Of a stretch of DNA of 64,000 nucleotides, positions 35,015 to 64,000 are shown piece after piece. Source of the stretch: Thermoguttaceae bacterium (GTDB lineage Bacteria > Planctomycetota > Planctomycetia > Pirellulales > Thermoguttaceae). The stretch covers positions 62,001 through 126,000 of the forward strand of contig JAFQXE010000038.1 in NCBI GenBank assembly GCA_017407125.1, read 5' to 3'. How positions within the stretch are numbered: the first letter of the stretch is position 1; every line of letters starts with the position of its first letter. The notes under the pieces were generated by a model. That model was not told where the DNA came from. It did no database searches and saw nothing but the letters and a program-made list of their open reading frames with translations. Made by a program: the position numbers and the translations under genes.

Positions 35015-37042
35015 ATGAAATCTCGTTTCTTTTTATTGTCTTTGTGTTTGATTTTTTCGCTGGGGTTCTGTGCGTCTGTGAATGCGAAAGAAAAAGCTGC
35101 AGATTCACAAAAAGAAACCGCTGCGGCAGCTGTCGACGCTATTCCGGAAGTTCCGGAAAACGGGACTCTGAAAGAATACAAAGAGTATATCGAAAAACTT
35201 AACGAGGCGTTCCGAAATAAAGCCAGAATTATGATTAACGTCGCGCAGGCGAATCACGTCAGTTTCCGATCTGAAGAGTTTTCCAAGCCATTTAACAGCA
35301 TGGCAAAGGAATACATGGATCGCATTTTCCAGGCAACCGACAAAGCGCTGCTTCTCAAAGACGTCTCCGACAAAGATTGTGAAGAATTGGTTAACAGGAA
35401 AATTCAGCTTCTTCAAGCATTGGCTCAGATTAACAACGATGGCGAAGACGCTTTTACTGCCGAATTGGAAGCCCTTGCAGCTCAGCTTCGCAAGATAGGC
35501 AAAACAAAGCTTGCCGAAAATATTGAAGGAAAGCTTCTCCAGAATAAGATCATTGGTTATGTCCGTTCTGGCGACGTCAAAAAATTCTCAAAAATCGCCG
35601 CTGAAATCGACGAAAAAGTCGAAAAAGCGGGAAAGGATATCACGCCTCCGTTGGCTGTACAAGCAATGATAATCGTTTTGGGCGCCAAAGATCTGAAAGA
35701 GTACAAAGCTCCTGAAGATCGTCAAGCCAAGTACCTCAAAGCGCTCTCGGAAGCCTCAGATCCGGAAGTCCAAAAGCTGGCTTTCCAATTGGAAAACGCC
35801 ATTCGCCGCGCTGAAGGCGAAAAGCGATTCAACGACACGCTGGGCAAAGAATTCAAATTCGGCGGAACGTTTACCGACGGTTCCGAATACAAGGCAGAAG
35901 ACTACGTCGGCAAAGTCGTTCTGATTGACTTCTGGGCAACCTGGTGCGGTCCGTGCTGCGAAGAACTGCCGAACGTCAAAAGGATGTACAACGCCTATCA
36001 CGACAAGGGCTTTGAGGTCATCGGCGTTACCCTCGACGATCCCGACAAAGCGGAAAAGAAGTTAAATACATTCCTTAAATTTAACGACATTCCCTGGAAA
36101 CAGATGTATGATAAAAATGCGGTTGTTCCTGGGGTAAAGAACAAAGACGGCAAACCGGTTACAGTTTCTGAATACTATTCAATTACCGCGATTCCCTGCC
36201 CCGTTCTCATTGGAAAAGACGGCAAGGTTATTTCCCTTAACGCTCGCGATATTGAACTCAAAGAGCAGCTTGTCAAAATCTACGGCGAAGTTGCAAGCCT
36301 CGAGGATGCCGACGAGGATGCCGACGAAGAAGACGATCAAGCCGCTGACGAACCCATCCCGGACGTTCCTGAAAACGGAACTCTGGCAGATTATAGAGAG
36401 TATGTCAAAAAGGTAAACGACATGCTCGATAAAAAAGCGAATCGCATGGAGCGTCAAGCAAAAAAGAACGGCGCAGACCCCCGGTCTGAAGAATTCTTCA
36501 ATTCCTTGAGGGAAATGGAAAAGGAATATTTCAGCCGCATTGAAAAGGCGCTCGACAAGGCGATACTTCTCAAAGATATCCCCGATGAAGAGTTTGATGC
36601 ATTGTTCGTTGCAAAGCTTCAGCTGATCCAGATCTTAACCCAGCTTAGCGACGAAAAGGTCAACACTTTTAACGCCAAAATGCAGGCTTTTGTCGATCAG
36701 CTTCGCAAAATGGGCAAAGAGGAACGGGTCAAGGATCTCGAAGTCATAATCCTTAGAGTTAAAATGCATGAGTACGTCGAGTCAAACAACGTCGAGGAAT
36801 TCGCCAAAGCGGCGCTTGAGGTTGACGAAAGAGTCAAAAACGCCGGAAAAGACATCACGCCGGACTTGGCTCAGTTGGCGCTTGTGACGGTTATGGGTTC
36901 CAAAGAGCTGTCAGAATACAAAGCCCCCGAAGGACGCAATGACAACTATCTCAAAGCCTTTGCGGAAGCCTCCGACCCGGAAGTCCAAAAGTTCGTCGAC
37001 GTTCTGAAAACGGTTATCAATCAAAAGAAAGACGAGAAATAA
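35015..37042 (+). CDS. Secreted thioredoxin-fold protein, helical-thioredoxin-helical (H-T-H)
   Basis: This 675-residue protein has a strong ribosome site (AAGGAGA) and a signal peptide (MKSRFFLLSLCLIFSLGFCA, ending VNA) without a good lipobox. Helical module 1 covers about 45-270. The thioredoxin domain carries C311-G-P-C314 in WATWCGPCCEELPNVK. An acidic linker (EDADEDADEEDDQ) precedes helical module 2 (about 445-675), which ends TVINQKKDEK. It is closest to the C-terminal half of the preceding giant lipoprotein, including the signal peptide start MKSR and the final TVINQK. Tandem duplication is the likely origin. A periplasmic thiol-redox role follows from the CGPC motif; the helical modules may bind a partner. 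Confidence 0.85.
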   Translation: MKSRFFLLSLCLIFSLGFCASVNAKEKAADSQKETAAAAVDAIPEVPENGTLKEYKEYIEKLNEAFRNKARIMINVAQANHVSFRSEEFSKPFNSMAKEYMDRIFQATDKALLLKDVSDKDCEELVNRKIQLLQALAQINNDGEDAFTAELEALAAQLRKIGKTKLAENIEGKLLQNKIIGYVRSGDVKKFSKIAAEIDEKVEKAGKDITPPLAVQAMIIVLGAKDLKEYKAPEDRQAKYLKALSEASDPEVQKLAFQLENAIRRAEGEKRFNDTLGKEFKFGGTFTDGSEYKAEDYVGKVVLIDFWATWCGPCCEELPNVKRMYNAYHDKGFEVIGVTLDDPDKAEKKLNTFLKFNDIPWKQMYDKNAVVPGVKNKDGKPVTVSEYYSITAIPCPVLIGKDGKVISLNARDIELKEQLVKIYGEVASLEDADEDADEEDDQAADEPIPDVPENGTLADYREYVKKVNDMLDKKANRMERQAKKNGADPRSEEFFNSLREMEKEYFSRIEKALDKAILLKDIPDEEFDALFVAKLQLIQILTQLSDEKVNTFNAKMQAFVDQLRKMGKEERVKDLEVIILRVKMHEYVESNNVEEFAKAALEVDERVKNAGKDITPDLAQLALVTVMGSKELSEYKAPEGRNDNYLKAFAEASDPEVQKFVDVLKTVINQKKDEK

Positions 37043-37102
37043 GCGTCATCCGGGGATAGCCCTGTTTGAACTGTGGTTTCGGTTTCATGGAATAAGGAAA
37101 GA

Positions 37103-37318
37103 GAACGCAGAGGCCGCAGACTACTCGCAGAATACGCAGAAGCAAGCGAACATGTGTCATCTACGCCCGTCTTCGACGGACTATGACACGATGTCCGCTT
37201 GCATTATTTTAAAATAATTATTCGGGCGGGAATCGTGGCGTAGACAACGTAGTTGGCGTCGTCGCCACATTCCCAGCCCGTCTGCGTTGTCTGCGAGGAG
37301 TCTGCGCACTCTGCGTTC
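37103..37318. repeat. Three-stem structured element, family B copy 1
   Basis: Outer arms of 38 bases (starting GAACGCAGAG at both ends when reversed, about 33 of 38 matching) enclose two inner hairpins. Hairpin 1 has arms GCAAGCGAACATGTGTCAT and GCAAGCGGACATCGTGTCAT (reversed) with a nested CCGTC-TTC-GACGG tip. Hairpin 2 has arms CGGGCGGGAATCGTGGCG and CGGGCTGGGAATGTGGCG (reversed). An AT-rich link joins them. A second copy is at 62867-63106. No gene lies between 37043 and 37516 apart from this. Confidence 0.8.
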
Positions 37319-37516
37319 AAAAAATATCTATTATCGCAATCTAAGTCAGTTTTGTTTTCTTCGCAAAAAAGAGCGTCTCCCCTGCCCCGGGCGAATATTC
37401 CTATTGCATTCTTTTTAAAAATGAGTAATAATATCTTCTATAAAACATATATAATACAAGCTGGACAGCGTCGGAGCTATCCAGAGCAATAGTACATTTA
37501 AACAAAATCGTTTTTT

Positions 37517-38605
37517 ATGAAAAATTTTTTAATCAACGCCGTTAAGATTTTAGCGTCAGTCGGCATTTTGGCGTTTCTGTTTTACATGGCGATCAACACG
37601 ACAGACGCCAACGGAAAGAACGTGTTTAACGTTCTGATGGAAACGGAAAAGAACTGGACGTATTTGCTTTTGGCTTTTCTGTGCTGCCTTGCGGCGTCCG
37701 TTATAACGTTTATTCGATGGCATCTGCTCAACCGGGCAGTTGGATTTCAGGTGCATTGGCTGGATTCGCTTCGCATCGGGTTTATCGGATATCTTTTCAA
37801 TCTCTTGCCTGTCGGCGGAATCGTCGGCGGCGACCTGCTCAAAGCGTGGATTCTTGCCAAAGAACAGGAAACGATTGACAAAATCTCAGCCATCTCCACC
37901 GGCGACAAGAAGCCGCAGTCGCGCATTCCCGACGCGCTGGCGACCGTCTTTACAGACCGCTTGTTTGGACTGTACGCGCTGTTTCTCCTGGCGGCTGTTG
38001 CGATTTTCTTTTCCGGAATCGACAAGATAGACAACGCCGTCATTCAGAAAATCTGTTATGCGACGTATATTATCGCCGTCGCGTGGACGGCTCTGATTAT
38101 TATCATTCTCGGACCGGACTACACCAACGGCAAATCCATCGAGGCGTTGGGGCGAATCCCCTACGTCGGCGCCGGACTGAAACGAACGGTCGAGTCCATA
38201 CGTCTGTTTCAGAAACACATCAAAACGCTTGTCGTTGTAACAGTCATGGGCTTGGTCGTCCATTTCTTTTTCGCCGCGTGCATCTTCCTGATTTCCGCCT
38301 CGCTTTTTGGCGCGAATTCCCTCCCGCTGGAAACGCATTTGGTTATTACGCCGCTGGGATTGTCAACCGGGGCGATTCCGCTGAGCGTCGGGCCGTTTGA
38401 AGTCGTCCTGGATATTTTCTATTCCGCCATTCCTCTGGCGACGGGAGAAAAGATGCTCGTCGGTTCCGGGCTGGTTGTCGCTTTGACGTATAGAATTCTC
38501 GTGCTGCTGGTGTCGACGTTCGGCGTTGTGTATTATTTCAGCAGCAAACAGGAAATCCAAAGCGTTATGAAAGACAGCGCCAAGGAAAACAACGCCAAAT
38601 CCTGA
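37517..38605 (+). CDS. Lysylphosphatidylglycerol-synthase-like membrane protein (UPF0104)
   Basis: This 362-residue protein has about eight hydrophobic segments, beginning with VKILASVGILAFLFYMAI. Motifs of the family include FIRWHLLNRAVG, RIGFIGYLFNLLPVGGIVGG with DLLKAW, and DRLFGLYALFLLA. The C-terminal region SLPLETHLVITPLGLSTGAI, then PLSVGPFEV, is also typical. The family covers flippase-like domains of MprF and AglD-type proteins thought to move lipids or lipid-linked molecules across the membrane. There is no soluble aminoacyl-transferase domain, so LPG synthesis is not supported. It is followed after 26 bases by the MoxR ATPase and probably shares a transcript with it; a functional link is not evident. 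No clear promoter was found. Confidence 0.8.
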   Translation: MKNFLINAVKILASVGILAFLFYMAINTTDANGKNVFNVLMETEKNWTYLLLAFLCCLAASVITFIRWHLLNRAVGFQVHWLDSLRIGFIGYLFNLLPVGGIVGGDLLKAWILAKEQETIDKISAISTGDKKPQSRIPDALATVFTDRLFGLYALFLLAAVAIFFSGIDKIDNAVIQKICYATYIIAVAWTALIIIILGPDYTNGKSIEALGRIPYVGAGLKRTVESIRLFQKHIKTLVVVTVMGLVVHFFFAACIFLISASLFGANSLPLETHLVITPLGLSTGAIPLSVGPFEVVLDIFYSAIPLATGEKMLVGSGLVVALTYRILVLLVSTFGVVYYFSSKQEIQSVMKDSAKENNAKS

Positions 38606-39648: not shown

Positions 39649-39958
39649 AGCCGGACTACGTGAGTTTCTTTTAGATCGCGGACGAAGTCCGCCCCCGATG
39701 GCGGGGGAGCCAGTCCGCGCTGCCGCGCGAGACGTATTATACCCGCTCCCGTTGGTCGCTTTGCTCTTTCCATATAAAGGTTTTAAACACGAAACACACG
39801 AAAAGAAACGAAAGAAACGAAAAATTTTTTAAAAATCTCTTTCGTCTTTTTCGCTTATTTCGTGTTTTTCGTGTTAAAAAAAAACAATTGATGCGCCATT
39901 GCACAATCGGCGAAATCCTCCGCATCTCCGCGTCTCCGCGTGAGTCTTTTCCCGGGAG
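39649..39958. repeat. Intergenic region with dispersed repeats and an imperfect inverted repeat
   Basis: No gene is seen. 39675-39691 holds GCGGACGAAGTCCGC. 39714-39764 is copy 2 of the GTTGGTCGC repeat. 39787-39876 is an A/T-skewed inverted repeat of about 37 bases per arm, built from ACGAAA-type units of 8 to 9 bases. 39920-39945 has CTCCGCGT units. Confidence 0.6.
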
Positions 39959-59157: not shown

Positions 59158-62100
59158 CTATTTATTATAGGCTCGCTTTTTGAAAAACAGCAGCCCCATG
59201 GCGCCGAGAATCAGCAGCGCCCAAGTGGACGGTTCCGGGACGCCTTCGCCGCCGCCATTCATGCCGAGAGCGATTTGTCCTAACGTTCCGTTGTTGTCGG
59301 TCGTGTAGTACAAGTAAGTCGATTCCGGCAGAAGGTTGCTCAGTTCGTCCAGGTTGATGGACGCAATTGAGCCGGCAATGGGAGAAGCAGACGTAATAAA
59401 CGTTCCGAGGATTCCGACGTCGTCAAGCGTAATTTCGTCTCCGGTAAGCAGCAAGTCGATACTGCCGTCCAACTCCGCAGATTCAACATTGTACGGAGTT
59501 GAAAGCGTCCAGTCGCTGCCGGACTTGGTGAGCGTCAGTTTCAAAGTCGAGTTGTCGTTGAGCGTTAGCGAAGAAAACGCAACGGGAGACGTCAATTCGG
59601 AAACGTCGACAATTGCGCCGTCCATAACCGTAAGAGAGCCGGAGCCGAACGTTCCGCTATCGGTCAGTTTGAGCGTACCGGCTTCGACGGTTGTATCGCC
59701 GGCGTACGTATTGTTTGCATTCAGAACCAGCGTCCCTTCGCCCGTCTTGACGAATCCGCCGTTTCCAGCAATGGGGCTGTGGATGATGGCGGTCTTGTCA
59801 GCGTCAACCTGAATGTTCGTCCCGTCTGCGGATGTCAAATTCACGTTGACAGCCGCCCACCAGATTGATTCAACGCCGTCAACCGCTCCGGTAATTACCG
59901 TTCCTTTGCCGAGGTTGACTGTCGGAATAACTTTGTTGGTGTATGAGCCGCGAGGATACGTAACGTTGACAACCGACAGCGTCCCGTCGTCAAGCGTGAG
60001 CGTTGTATTAACGGCGTATGTTGTGTAATTTGCGTTTCCTAGCTGGAGAACTCCTGTCGTTAAAGAACCCCCGTTGGTAATTGTAACGGTTCCCGTTGCT
60101 TTGGATCCGCGACCATGCAGAGCAACTTCGTTTGCGGTTACAGTTCCGCCGTCAATGTTGAGTACGCCTGCCATCGTAACGCCAGGATAAATAATGTTGG
60201 CAGAAAGCGTTGCGCCTTCGTAGACGTTGACCACGCCGGTGTTATCGGGTCCGTCGCGACCGATTTTAACGGTGTCCGTTACCTCGATTGTACCGTAGTT
60301 GTTAACAATGCCATCGCCCCAGGATCCGACTTGAATGTCCAGACTTTTGAGATAGCCGCCGTTTTGAACGGTGATTGTTCCGGTATTAGTAGTGTGTGCT
60401 GCAAGTTTCATGTTGACGGTGGATTCAAATCTTCCGCCGCTTTCTACGAGAATCTCGCCGTCTCCGTAGGAACCGACTGTAACGCTTCCCTTCGCGGTAA
60501 CGCTGCCGCCGTTTTTAACGTCGACAAGCCCATCGCCATAGGAACCGACAAACAGGTTTGAATTGCTCGTCAGAGAGCCGCCGTCGTAGACGGTAATCGT
60601 ACCAGACGACCCGCCGGAATGTTCAGCAAGGCGAAGCAGGGCGCTTGTGGTCATCGTTCCGTAAATATTCAGATTACCCGTTCCCCAGGATCCGACTTGA
60701 ATTTCCTGACTTCCCGCAGCGTAGGTAACGCCGCTGGCGATGTTGACCGTACCGACAGAAGCGTTGTCAGCGTTGGTTTCGCCGCCGATGTACAGTTTCA
60801 AATTGGCGGCGTTGCCGGACGTTGTTTCTGTTTTAATGCTGCCGCTGTTGATATTCCACGTCCCGTTACCTTGTTTCCCGACGAACGAAATGCCGCCGCC
60901 GAGAATCGTCATGGAGCCGGTTTCCGTGCCGTTGTAATTGACGGTCGCGCCGTTGTCGACTCTCAAATAGCCCAATCGAAGCGCGTTGGCGTTGGGAGCG
61001 GCTTCTGTTCCGAAGTTCGTTACGCCAGCCGTGGTTTCAAAGCCGGTGCTGGAAATATTGCCGGAGAAGTTGAGCGTTGCCGCGCCGGACTTGATCAGTC
61101 TTCCGGTTTGAGTCCCGCCCGTCGCCGCATTGGAATAGTAGTTACTCTTAACGTTTCGAGTAAAGTTGATCTCGCCGGATTCCTGAGCCAGTTCCAGCGT
61201 CGCGTACATCTTTTCATCAGAAGACGTAACAGTAATATCGGTTGTTGCCGAACCGAGCGTTCCGTTTCCAGTCAGCTTGAGCGTACCCGCTTGAATAACA
61301 GTGTCTTTTGAGTAGGTATTCGCTGCGGAGAAAACTAAAACGCCTTTCCCCGTTTTAACAACGTTGGGTCTTTTATCGCTGGCAATTGCGCTGTCAAAGA
61401 CGACGGCGTTTACCGTCAACATAGCGCCTTCAGCGACATCGAACAGACCGCCGCTTTCAGTGTGATCGTCGTTGCGAATTGAAACCCTGTTAACGTCAAT
61501 TACGTTAGCTGTTCCGCCCGTTACGTGAATGCCGTTATCGATAATAAAGCTGCCGTAGGAGTCGCCCTGGTCGTCGGGATTGGTTATGGTAAATTTGCCG
61601 TCGTTGAGATACATGACGCATCCCAATGTAATGTGACCAGAGGTAACGTTTAATGAACCGCCGTTATTAAGATTGAGTCGGCTAACGGATCCCGTCCCGT
61701 AACCCAAAACCGTACCGGATCCGCTGAGAACGGCTGACGATCCTTCAACGGTTACAACGCTTTCTTTTGAAAACGTTCCCGTTCCGCCTGATTTAGTAAT
61801 CGTTAGCGTTCCGTCAGTAACCTTAACTTCTCCCTTGAAGCCAGAGGCGTCATTGAGAACCAGTTCGCCAGCTCCTGTCTTTTTAATCGTTCCCGTTCCG
61901 GAAATAGCGTTGCTAACCGTTTGTTTTGTATCATGAGCGAATTCCAACGTGGCGTTGTTAACAACTTTGCCCGATCCCAGAGTTCCCGCGCCGGAGAGTT
62001 TGAGCGTCCCTTCTGTAATCGTTGTTCCGGCAGAGTAAGTGTTGTTCCCCGCTAATACCTGCGTTCCCGTTCCGACTTTTTCGATCGCGGTTGGATAATC

Positions 62101-62667
62101 GTCGACGTTGCTTCTGTAGGTGTTCATGATCTGCCCGCTGAAGGTTGCGTCTTTATTGGCTCCGCCGAGCTGATACGTGATTGTGTGACCGGAGGACTCG
62201 TCGTTGCGAATAAATCCGGTTCCTTCCAGCGCGCCGATTGAAACGATTGCGTCTGTCGACATGGCGGTTCTGACATAGCATTTGTCGCCCAAGACCAAAG
62301 TCCCCTGACTAAACCCGGCGTTCGTACTGGCGAAATACAATCCAGTATTCGCGTCCGAGTTATGAACGTTCATCGTTCCTGTAAACGCGGTGTTGTCCCC
62401 TGTCAATTTGAGGTAATAGTTGACGCTTTTGCCGGTATAGTCAACAAACCCGCCTCCAGACAGATTTCTGGGATAGGAATGCAGCGACGCGTCTGTGATA
62501 ACAAAATACACAGTATCGTAACTGTCGGTATCGATATTGGGCGCGTTATAAATCTCCCCGTTCGTATACGTGACAGTTTGCGCCATCGCGGGAACAATCG
62601 CAGCGCACGCCAAAACAAAAATCGCCAAACAAAGGGTTTTCGGGAACTTCGTCATGGGAACAAACAT
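59158..62667 (-). CDS. Giant beta-strand-repeat PEP-CTERM surface protein, paralogue 2
   Basis: This 1169-residue protein may start at 62667 (MFVPMTKF) or at the second ATG at 62655; neither has a strong ribosome site. The signal peptide is LCLAIFVLACAAIVPAMA, cut before QTVTY. The beta-strand repeats match those of paralogue 1 over about 700 residues, including SAANTYSKDTVIQAGTLKLT, VSNAISGTGTIKKTG and VNVTYPRGSYTNKVIPTVNL. The end is VPEPSTWALLILGAMGLLFF followed by KKRAYNK. The N-terminal 230 and C-terminal 200 residues are unrelated to those of paralogue 1. A perfect consensus promoter lies 83 bases upstream, so strong expression is expected. The two genes lie 111 bases apart on the same strand. 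Confidence 0.85.
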   Translation of the reverse strand: MFVPMTKFPKTLCLAIFVLACAAIVPAMAQTVTYTNGEIYNAPNIDTDSYDTVYFVITDASLHSYPRNLSGGGFVDYTGKSVNYYLKLTGDNTAFTGTMNVHNSDANTGLYFASTNAGFSQGTLVLGDKCYVRTAMSTDAIVSIGALEGTGFIRNDESSGHTITYQLGGANKDATFSGQIMNTYRSNVDDYPTAIEKVGTGTQVLAGNNTYSAGTTITEGTLKLSGAGTLGSGKVVNNATLEFAHDTKQTVSNAISGTGTIKKTGAGELVLNDASGFKGEVKVTDGTLTITKSGGTGTFSKESVVTVEGSSAVLSGSGTVLGYGTGSVSRLNLNNGGSLNVTSGHITLGCVMYLNDGKFTITNPDDQGDSYGSFIIDNGIHVTGGTANVIDVNRVSIRNDDHTESGGLFDVAEGAMLTVNAVVFDSAIASDKRPNVVKTGKGVLVFSAANTYSKDTVIQAGTLKLTGNGTLGSATTDITVTSSDEKMYATLELAQESGEINFTRNVKSNYYSNAATGGTQTGRLIKSGAATLNFSGNISSTGFETTAGVTNFGTEAAPNANALRLGYLRVDNGATVNYNGTETGSMTILGGGISFVGKQGNGTWNINSGSIKTETTSGNAANLKLYIGGETNADNASVGTVNIASGVTYAAGSQEIQVGSWGTGNLNIYGTMTTSALLRLAEHSGGSSGTITVYDGGSLTSNSNLFVGSYGDGLVDVKNGGSVTAKGSVTVGSYGDGEILVESGGRFESTVNMKLAAHTTNTGTITVQNGGYLKSLDIQVGSWGDGIVNNYGTIEVTDTVKIGRDGPDNTGVVNVYEGATLSANIIYPGVTMAGVLNIDGGTVTANEVALHGRGSKATGTVTITNGGSLTTGVLQLGNANYTTYAVNTTLTLDDGTLSVVNVTYPRGSYTNKVIPTVNLGKGTVITGAVDGVESIWWAAVNVNLTSADGTNIQVDADKTAIIHSPIAGNGGFVKTGEGTLVLNANNTYAGDTTVEAGTLKLTDSGTFGSGSLTVMDGAIVDVSELTSPVAFSSLTLNDNSTLKLTLTKSGSDWTLSTPYNVESAELDGSIDLLLTGDEITLDDVGILGTFITSASPIAGSIASINLDELSNLLPESTYLYYTTDNNGTLGQIALGMNGGGEGVPEPSTWALLILGAMGLLFFKKRAYNK

Positions 62668-62866: not shown

Positions 62867-63106
62867 GAACGCAGAGACCGCAGACTACTCGCAGAATACG
62901 CAGAAGCAAGCGACCATGTGTCATCTACGCCCGATTCTCGGGCTATGACACGATGTTCGCTTGCAAATATTTTAAAATTTTTTAAAAACATTTTAAAATT
63001 TTTTAAAAACCGGGCGGGAATCGTGGCGAAGACAACGTAGTTGGCGTAGTCGCCACATTCCCAGCCCGTCTGCGCTCTCTGCGAGGAGTCTGCGTACTCT
63101 GCGTTC
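62867..63106. repeat. Three-stem structured element, family B copy 2
   Basis: Same architecture as 37103-37318: outer arms starting GAACGCAGAG, hairpin 1 with GCAAGCGACCATGTGTCAT and its partner, and hairpin 2 with CGGGCGGGAATCGTGGCG. The tip of hairpin 1 is GCCCGA-TTC-TCGGGC, different in sequence from copy 1 but still paired. The AT linker is longer and made of TTTTAAA units. An AATTGCT heptamer array follows at 63140-63172. No gene lies between 62668 and 63288. Confidence 0.8.
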
Positions 63107-63288: not shown

Positions 63289-64000
63289 ATGAAACGTTTG
63301 ATTTGTATCGTTCAGACGGGCGTTTTGCTTTGTCTGTCGTCGTTTTGTTTAGCTCAAACCCCGGAGGCAGACATGGCGTCTACCAGCGCATCTCAATTTG
63401 ACCAATATCGCTTTACGCTCTCGGACGCCGACGCCGTCGCGCGCCTGAAAAAGCGGATTCAGCAAGACCATCCCAACGTGGATTTCGGCGTCGTGGACGT
63501 TGCCTCGCCAACCCGGCTGACGTCTCCCGATAACGCTGTTACGTTCTGGTTTTTGTTCAAGGGAAAAGGGGAAATCCTCCTTCCCGCCGGGTACAGAACT
63601 CAAGAGGGCGACGGGGCGTTTTTCTCGTCCGGCTATCAGACCGACGCGACCCCAGCCGACCTGGCAGAGAAGCTCAATCTGATTGAAAAGAAATTCGATA
63701 CCGTCGCTACGGCGGTTCAGACGCCGGTTCGGGCGATTCTCGACCGCGCGACAGCCGGCAAGGACGCGGACGGAAACCCCGCCTTTGCAGGCGACGTCTG
63801 CGGCGAACTCTGGAAGCTGGAAGAGTCGAGCGTTCGTCCGTGGTCGAGCGACGCGGAAGTTCAGGCGGCTCTGGAATGGCTGTTTTCCGTCTACGGGAAG
63901 ATCGGCTGGTCGACAAAACAGGCGGACGGCTGGGAACCGATGATGAGCGGGGATCAGATTACTCTCGCCGCCGGTGAATCCGTTGACGTCCGGGGCGATT
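63289..64000 (+). CDS. Secreted protein of unknown function, truncated by the window end
   Basis: An open frame starts at the ATG after GGAGAGAATCC and runs without a stop to the end of the window (237 complete codons). The first 22 residues are a signal peptide (MKRLICIVQTGVLLCLSSFC, then LA before QTPEA). The visible part has a helical segment (DADAVARLKKRIQQDHPNVD), a beta-rich region (AVTFWFLFKGKGEILLPAGY) and a third stretch around DVCGELWKLEESSVRPWSSD. No family is recognised from this part. The GC content and codon use match the housekeeping genes, so it is likely a real gene. Confidence 0.7.
   Translation, partial: MKRLICIVQTGVLLCLSSFCLAQTPEADMASTSASQFDQYRFTLSDADAVARLKKRIQQDHPNVDFGVVDVASPTRLTSPDNAVTFWFLFKGKGEILLPAGYRTQEGDGAFFSSGYQTDATPADLAEKLNLIEKKFDTVATAVQTPVRAILDRATAGKDADGNPAFAGDVCGELWKLEESSVRPWSSDAEVQAALEWLFSVYGKIGWSTKQADGWEPMMSGDQITLAAGESVDVRGD

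Follow-up and report, generated by a model that had tools for sequence, protein, structure and literature searches.

Among the closest described systems are MITEs and the autonomous IS-derived transposons, in which short, gene-less and dispersed copies have palindromic ends in common with gene-bearing copies. The elements studied here resemble them in these respects; however, the gene of their longer copies encodes a predicted Cas4/RecB-like nuclease and not the transposase of MITE/transposon pairs, no target duplication was seen, the ends are arrays of short units and the body inverts in place. The elements are also similar to the REP/BIMEs with RAYT, which are likewise many-copy intergenic hairpins, but here no RAYT link was found, the arms are long and arrayed, and a nuclease gene lies inside. 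With the Cas4/RecB-type nucleases (4ic1 SSO0001, lambda exonuclease, AddAB) the encoded protein shares the modelled fold and the motif order E-D-ExK-QxxxY, whereas it stands alone and has only 120-140 aa. The genes of the longer copies are members of the GxxExxY family (TIGR04256/PF13366 PDDEXK_3), for which the NCBIfam entry gives a name only, and no paper linking GxxExxY proteins to such repeats or to mobility was found in a search of the literature outside subscription papers and preprints. Repeats of a similar build have been described in Geobacter metallireducens, where three tandem repeats with the consensus TCTCCGTS[Y] form opposite-strand pairs at variable distance and were interpreted as putative sites of global regulators (IHF/HU) (PMC2700814). 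As given in the parts of that paper available to us, this consensus is the reverse complement of the CACGGAGA-type unit, but those passages draw no link to a nuclease gene or to mobility (PMC2700814).

The window analysed in this work (the whole stretch of DNA, 64,000 nucleotides from a Thermoguttaceae bacterium) contains two copies of such an element. We regard both as non-autonomous (MITE-like) forms of a mobile element with a GxxExxY nuclease, by which they would be mobilised (probability about 0.6). They are made up of the following parts:

37068-37102, no strand: outer AT-rich flank on the left of copy 1, weakly common to copies and probably part of the inserted unit
37103-37140, plus strand: left arm of copy 1, four CGCAGA units with spacing 9/11/9
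37142-37202, plus strand: hairpin A of copy 1, with an unpaired G on the 3' side and the tip CCGTC-TTC-GACGG
37203-37222, no strand: AT-rich spacer of copy 1, the place of the GxxExxY gene in longer copies
37223-37280, plus strand: hairpin B of copy 1, with a bulged C and a bulged A
37281-37318, minus strand: right arm of copy 1
37319-37357, no strand: outer AT-rich flank on the other side of copy 1
62867-62904, plus strand: left arm of copy 2
62906-62964, plus strand: hairpin A of copy 2, with the tip GCCCGA-TTC-TCGGGC
62965-63010, no strand: AT-rich spacer of copy 2
63011-63068, plus strand: hairpin B of copy 2
63069-63106, minus strand: right arm of copy 2

The sequence-only reading had described elements at 37103-37318 and 62867-63106, each with a 38-base outer stem around two hairpins, and both the coordinates and the anatomy were confirmed. 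The 38-base inverted arms, which correspond to the terminal inverted repeats of a MITE, are complementary at 87% in copy 1 and 84% in copy 2. Folding of the single strand with DNA parameters gave z values of -12.9 (copy 1) and -16.1 (copy 2), and none of 200 shuffles folded as well. The CGCAGA core of the arm units stands, but not their proposed uniform spacing of 9 bases, the measured distances being 9, 11 and 9. The two tips were also read correctly, although in copy 1 the tip register contains a single C-A mismatch next to its perfectly paired 5 bp. Copy 1 lies between an ORF ending at 37042 and an ORF starting at 37517. The ORFs on either side of copy 2 start at 62667 (minus strand) and at 63289 (plus strand). 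As a separate observation, the minus-strand ORF at 59158-62667 (1169 aa) contains autotransporter-like repetitive stretches and a C-terminal VPEPSTWALLILG motif, which we take to resemble a PEP-CTERM sorting signal.

The element had been thought to occur in two copies. Instead, 22 full-length copies were found in the 57 contigs (4.44 Mb) of the genome, plus interrupted or shortened ones, and a strict arm pattern gave 64 matches in the genome vs 0 for the reversed control. The CGCAGA family was present in all three other genomes of the genus that were searched and in none of 56 other genomes. The gaps orthologous to copy 1 in the relatives G002 and G003 contained about 95 bp of unrelated sequence and no element. 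Five further sites were compared. At three of them a relative retains hardly any sequence, from 2 to about 31 bp, and at the other two different sequence is present. At C6:17555, about 22 bp are present in G001 vs about 308 bp with the element; at C6:30361, 2 bp in G003 vs about 320 bp; and at C33:41918, about 30 bp in both G001 and G002 vs 330 bp. At C33:44909 and C33:52741 the relatives lack the element and have other sequence in its place. None of the three cleanest empty sites, whose flanks have diverged, shows a visible target-site duplication, and in two of them around 30-45 bp of ancestral DNA had been replaced. With regard to a homing-endonuclease element, whose nuclease gene interrupts a recognition site that is intact in empty alleles, the empty sites were compared for unit arrays and carry none. 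Where both genomes had a copy at the orthologous site, the body was inverted between matching flanks in two of eight pairs, one of which was followed base by base. The dispersal of the copies, their presence or absence at orthologous sites and the gene that takes the place of the spacer in longer copies all bear out the earlier suggestion of a non-autonomous mobile element.

Other repeats were seen at or within some of these elements. An insert of about 100 bp, belonging to another repeat, lies within hairpin A or B at C4:2066-2885 (L045), C48:42757-43068 (L036) and C29:19960-20269 (L040), and is missing from the G002 orthologues of the C4 copy (C253) and the C29 copy (C104); it seems to target these hairpins. 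Comparison of L037 (C31:34942-35436) with L056 revealed a MITE inserted in the spacer of one element, with an apparent AATTAA duplication. This MITE, whose ends are presumably ISL3-like, itself carries CACGAAA and ATCCGT arrays. In G002 the site of the element C6:17555 (L253, G002:C9:23000-23700) is occupied by another insertion, about 250 bp long, which also has ACGGATTTG and CACGAAA arrays.

In the longer copies, a GxxExxY gene (TIGR04256/PF13366) takes the position that the spacer has in the window copies, with hairpin A on one side and hairpin B on the other. The genome has four PF13366 matches, two of which lie in identical contig stretches and were counted as one. Its own gene-bearing copy is C4:2066-2885, and C42:82212-83031 is identical to it where compared. 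Two further copies with the gene are found in the sister genome G002. C253 occupies the orthologous position and C52 a second site; in both, the gene again separates hairpin A from hairpin B. The genes match the family models well over the cut-offs (121.8-128.4 bits vs a cut-off of 35) and encode proteins of 136-139 aa. Comparison of C4 with C52 gave a dN of 0.050 and a dS of 0.743 (ratio 0.068), and the protein is, by these substitution rates, under purifying selection. The two remaining GxxExxY genes in the genome of the window are surrounded by inverted arrays of CGCGGAG-like (C28) and ACGGATTTG-like (C32) units; all three distinct genes thus lie within inverted arrays of three different units. 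In the gene-bearing copies that were read, the GxxExxY gene was alone, with no DDE transposase and no helicase, Cas1 or recombinase partner. As points against mobilisation by the nuclease, short elements were present in G003 with no PF13366 match (the assembly is 87% complete), and none of the three GxxExxY genes of G001 lies at a known CGCAGA element position. A plasmid search with the gene-bearing copy gave no DNA match, and the protein was found in 8 of 72,556 plasmid records.

The residues E27, D67, E77, K79, Q91 and Y95 were invariant in 16 of 16 sequences, so that the catalytic residues of the PD-(D/E)XK nucleases are present. The invariant E, D, ExK and QxxxY are consistent with an active nuclease of the RecB type. 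An AlphaFold2 model of a family member (44 rows, the first being L169) reached a mean pLDDT of 94.2. The best PDB match of this model was 4ic1, SSO0001, which we take to be a Cas4 (Foldseek E 0.0026; VIA-align Z 9.5, rmsd 3.8, 98 aligned), followed by other PD-(D/E)XK nucleases. The protein is therefore modelled as a minimal Cas4/RecB-like PD-(D/E)XK nuclease. When solved structures were searched by sequence, the sole chain at E<=1 had an E of 0.21, and PADLOC returned only weak Cas4/DRT-like and candidate-defence scores for the protein.

One important question is whether arrays accompany GxxExxY genes in general. These genes occur in 124 of 198 genomes of the class. Among the best 30 loci of the class, 26 had inward arrays on one side at least, 22 of them on both, whereas arrays were found at 0 of 29 loci (of 30 selected) of Uma2, another multi-copy PD-(D/E)XK family used as control. 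In GTDB species genomes, 76 of 80 loci were used, the flanks of the rest being too short. An inverted-repeat score of at least 32 was obtained at 51 of the 76, but at none of 61 far flanks and in none of 380 shuffles. By record title these loci belong to archaea, Bacteroidetes, Proteobacteria, Planctomycetes, Chloroflexota, Acidobacteria, Verrucomicrobia, Cyanobacteria, Spirochaetota and others. In the pooled set of 150 loci, in which two genes appear twice as overlapping loci (L274/L290 and L277/L289), inward arrays of units of about 9 bp were present on both sides in 93 and on at least one side in 126, vs 0 of 1500 shuffled flanks, and 9 was the commonest spacing. A control with backwards flanks gave 17/150 and was discarded, since 8-bp arrays also fit the pattern when it is reversed; the shuffled control is unaffected.

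The letters of the units were then set on a tree of the 147 distinct proteins from these 150 loci, with labels only where four or more units had been found. The variable letters change less often than shuffled labels (e.g. 12 vs 23.5); at four positions only 0-1 of 300 shuffles reached so low a count, in a test without correction for shared descent, and two of those four positions still cluster within the class alone. Forty-eight same-order genomes (the listed family- and order-level genomes) had a median of 8 arrays with PF13366 (n=30) vs 0.5 without (n=18; p=0.001), with a Spearman coefficient of 0.585, uncorrected for shared descent. Arrays were found despite the lack of PF13366 in G096 (19) and G170 (11). 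In G229, the 57 listed arrays form 22 convergent pairs, with no divergent and no same-strand pairs, mostly of 183-240 bp. Of the 18 elements read in this genome, one holds the GxxExxY gene and two enclose an unrelated ORF, labelled by eye as ferredoxin-like (74 aa; L314, 144-368, minus strand) and membrane-protein-like (154 aa; L315, 132-596, minus strand). These elements have their arms in common, but not their inner sequence. None has hairpins like A and B, and the hairpins are therefore not a general trait.

The strongest rival to nuclease-driven mobilisation builds on some of these results. The arrays might be sites for host factors, or the ends of a cassette moved in some other way, and GxxExxY, perhaps a defence nuclease, would often travel along as a passenger. 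The nuclease could be cargo, given that other ORFs are found within arrays as well; arrays in genomes without PF13366 fit the same explanation, as does the interpretation, in the part of the Geobacter metallireducens paper available to us, of the paired three-unit repeats as putative IHF/HU sites (PMC2700814). Against it, gene and arrays are paired across domains with different units, while the other PD-(D/E)XK family gave 0 of 29; the array letters follow the protein tree; and no other gene recurs within the arrays of the few elements read. We consider a passenger role unlikely on balance. If the nuclease does prove to be a passenger, the window elements would instead be a new family of MITE-like repeats.

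Nuclease-driven mobilisation could operate as follows. In the full element, the two arms enclose hairpin A, then the GxxExxY nuclease gene, then hairpin B. The GxxExxY protein would bind the arrays and cut or nick at or near the element, perhaps once inner arms have been extruded as hairpins. Repair and recombination, and not a classical transposase with target duplication, would then copy, invert or insert the DNA bounded by the arms, and gene-less copies that retain the ends and hairpins would move in trans. The pairing of the gene with similar repeats across many phyla points to a kind of mobile element of which no description was found in the literature searched. With about even confidence, we propose that such minimal elements exist across archaea and many bacterial phyla, that their sole gene is the Cas4/RecB-like GxxExxY nuclease, which would recognise the inward arrays of 9-bp units as ends, that cut and repair would move and flip the arm-bounded DNA with no transposase, and that large gene-less populations are seeded in this way, the window copies belonging to a genus-specific family with added hairpins. 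The novelty rests on the gene-array pairing and on the absence of any transposase or known end type. GxxExxY genes are common, yet no role for them was found in print; the link with arrays offers a testable function for the family and would explain a widespread type of intergenic repeat once taken for regulator sites. It suggests, too, that a single Cas4-like nuclease is enough to maintain a mobile element; this would be relevant to how nucleases of the Cas4/RecB type came to act together with mobile DNA.

A Y1 (TnpA_REP-like) transposase encoded elsewhere in the genome might alternatively move the hairpins as single-stranded hairpins of the REP/IS200 type. Enzymes of this kind read features such as bulged hairpins, and the genome (G000) has 10 Y1_Tnp matches. 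However, none of the 10 Y1 genes has hairpin A, hairpin B or an arm within about 1.5 kb, and a RAYT link was rejected on this basis; moreover, the hairpins occur almost only together with arms, and the gene inside the element is a different one, GxxExxY. Movement by a Y1 enzyme is thus quite improbable.

Pairing in the hairpins was analysed in 45 of 49 distinct hairpin A sequences from four genomes (two on the wrong strand and two with nested inserts were left out) and in 26 of 29 distinct hairpin B sequences (three nested inserts left out), by shuffling and by sliding the partner columns. In hairpin A, 95.1% of cells were paired and 27 had changed on both sides vs a shuffled mean of 4.8; the values for hairpin B were 95.0% and 23 vs 5.3, and in neither case were any of 500 shuffles as high. 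The signal was lost when the partner was slid by 1-3 columns. Covariation is therefore real. Further pair types did not exceed the shuffles (233/500 for hairpin A and 463/500 for hairpin B), and the count of pairs with a change on both sides was weak in hairpin A (51/500). Hence, pairing is kept, though not beyond every measure. At paired columns there was no excess of G-T over A-C (9 vs 25 and 3 vs 10 for A and B); much of the A-C count of hairpin A appears to stem from columns 7 and 55, a single pair with 13 unpaired cells. The sequence-only reading had taken the paired tips as a mark of selection for structure. The pairing holds, but this conclusion is weakened because inverted repeats can correct one arm on the other, which could maintain pairing just as selection could. 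The unpaired G at A3 column 49 was invariant in 45 of 45 hairpin A sequences, which argues against correction alone and makes recognition of the element through its fold possible. A structured RNA gene or cis-regulatory RNA held by selection on its fold, the other option raised at first, would agree with the strong fold and the covariation, but is the least probable explanation, given that a gathering-score search of the window against Rfam 15 gave 0 matches, that paired columns show no G-T excess, that the body reverses orientation at fixed sites, that the frame is a 38-bp palindrome of repeated units and that the family is restricted to one genus among the 60 genomes searched.

The window also contains, at 39781-39880, a palindrome built of CACGAAA-type units, probably a further family whose arrays are organised on the same principle. 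A similar palindrome, not present in G002, was seen in L021.
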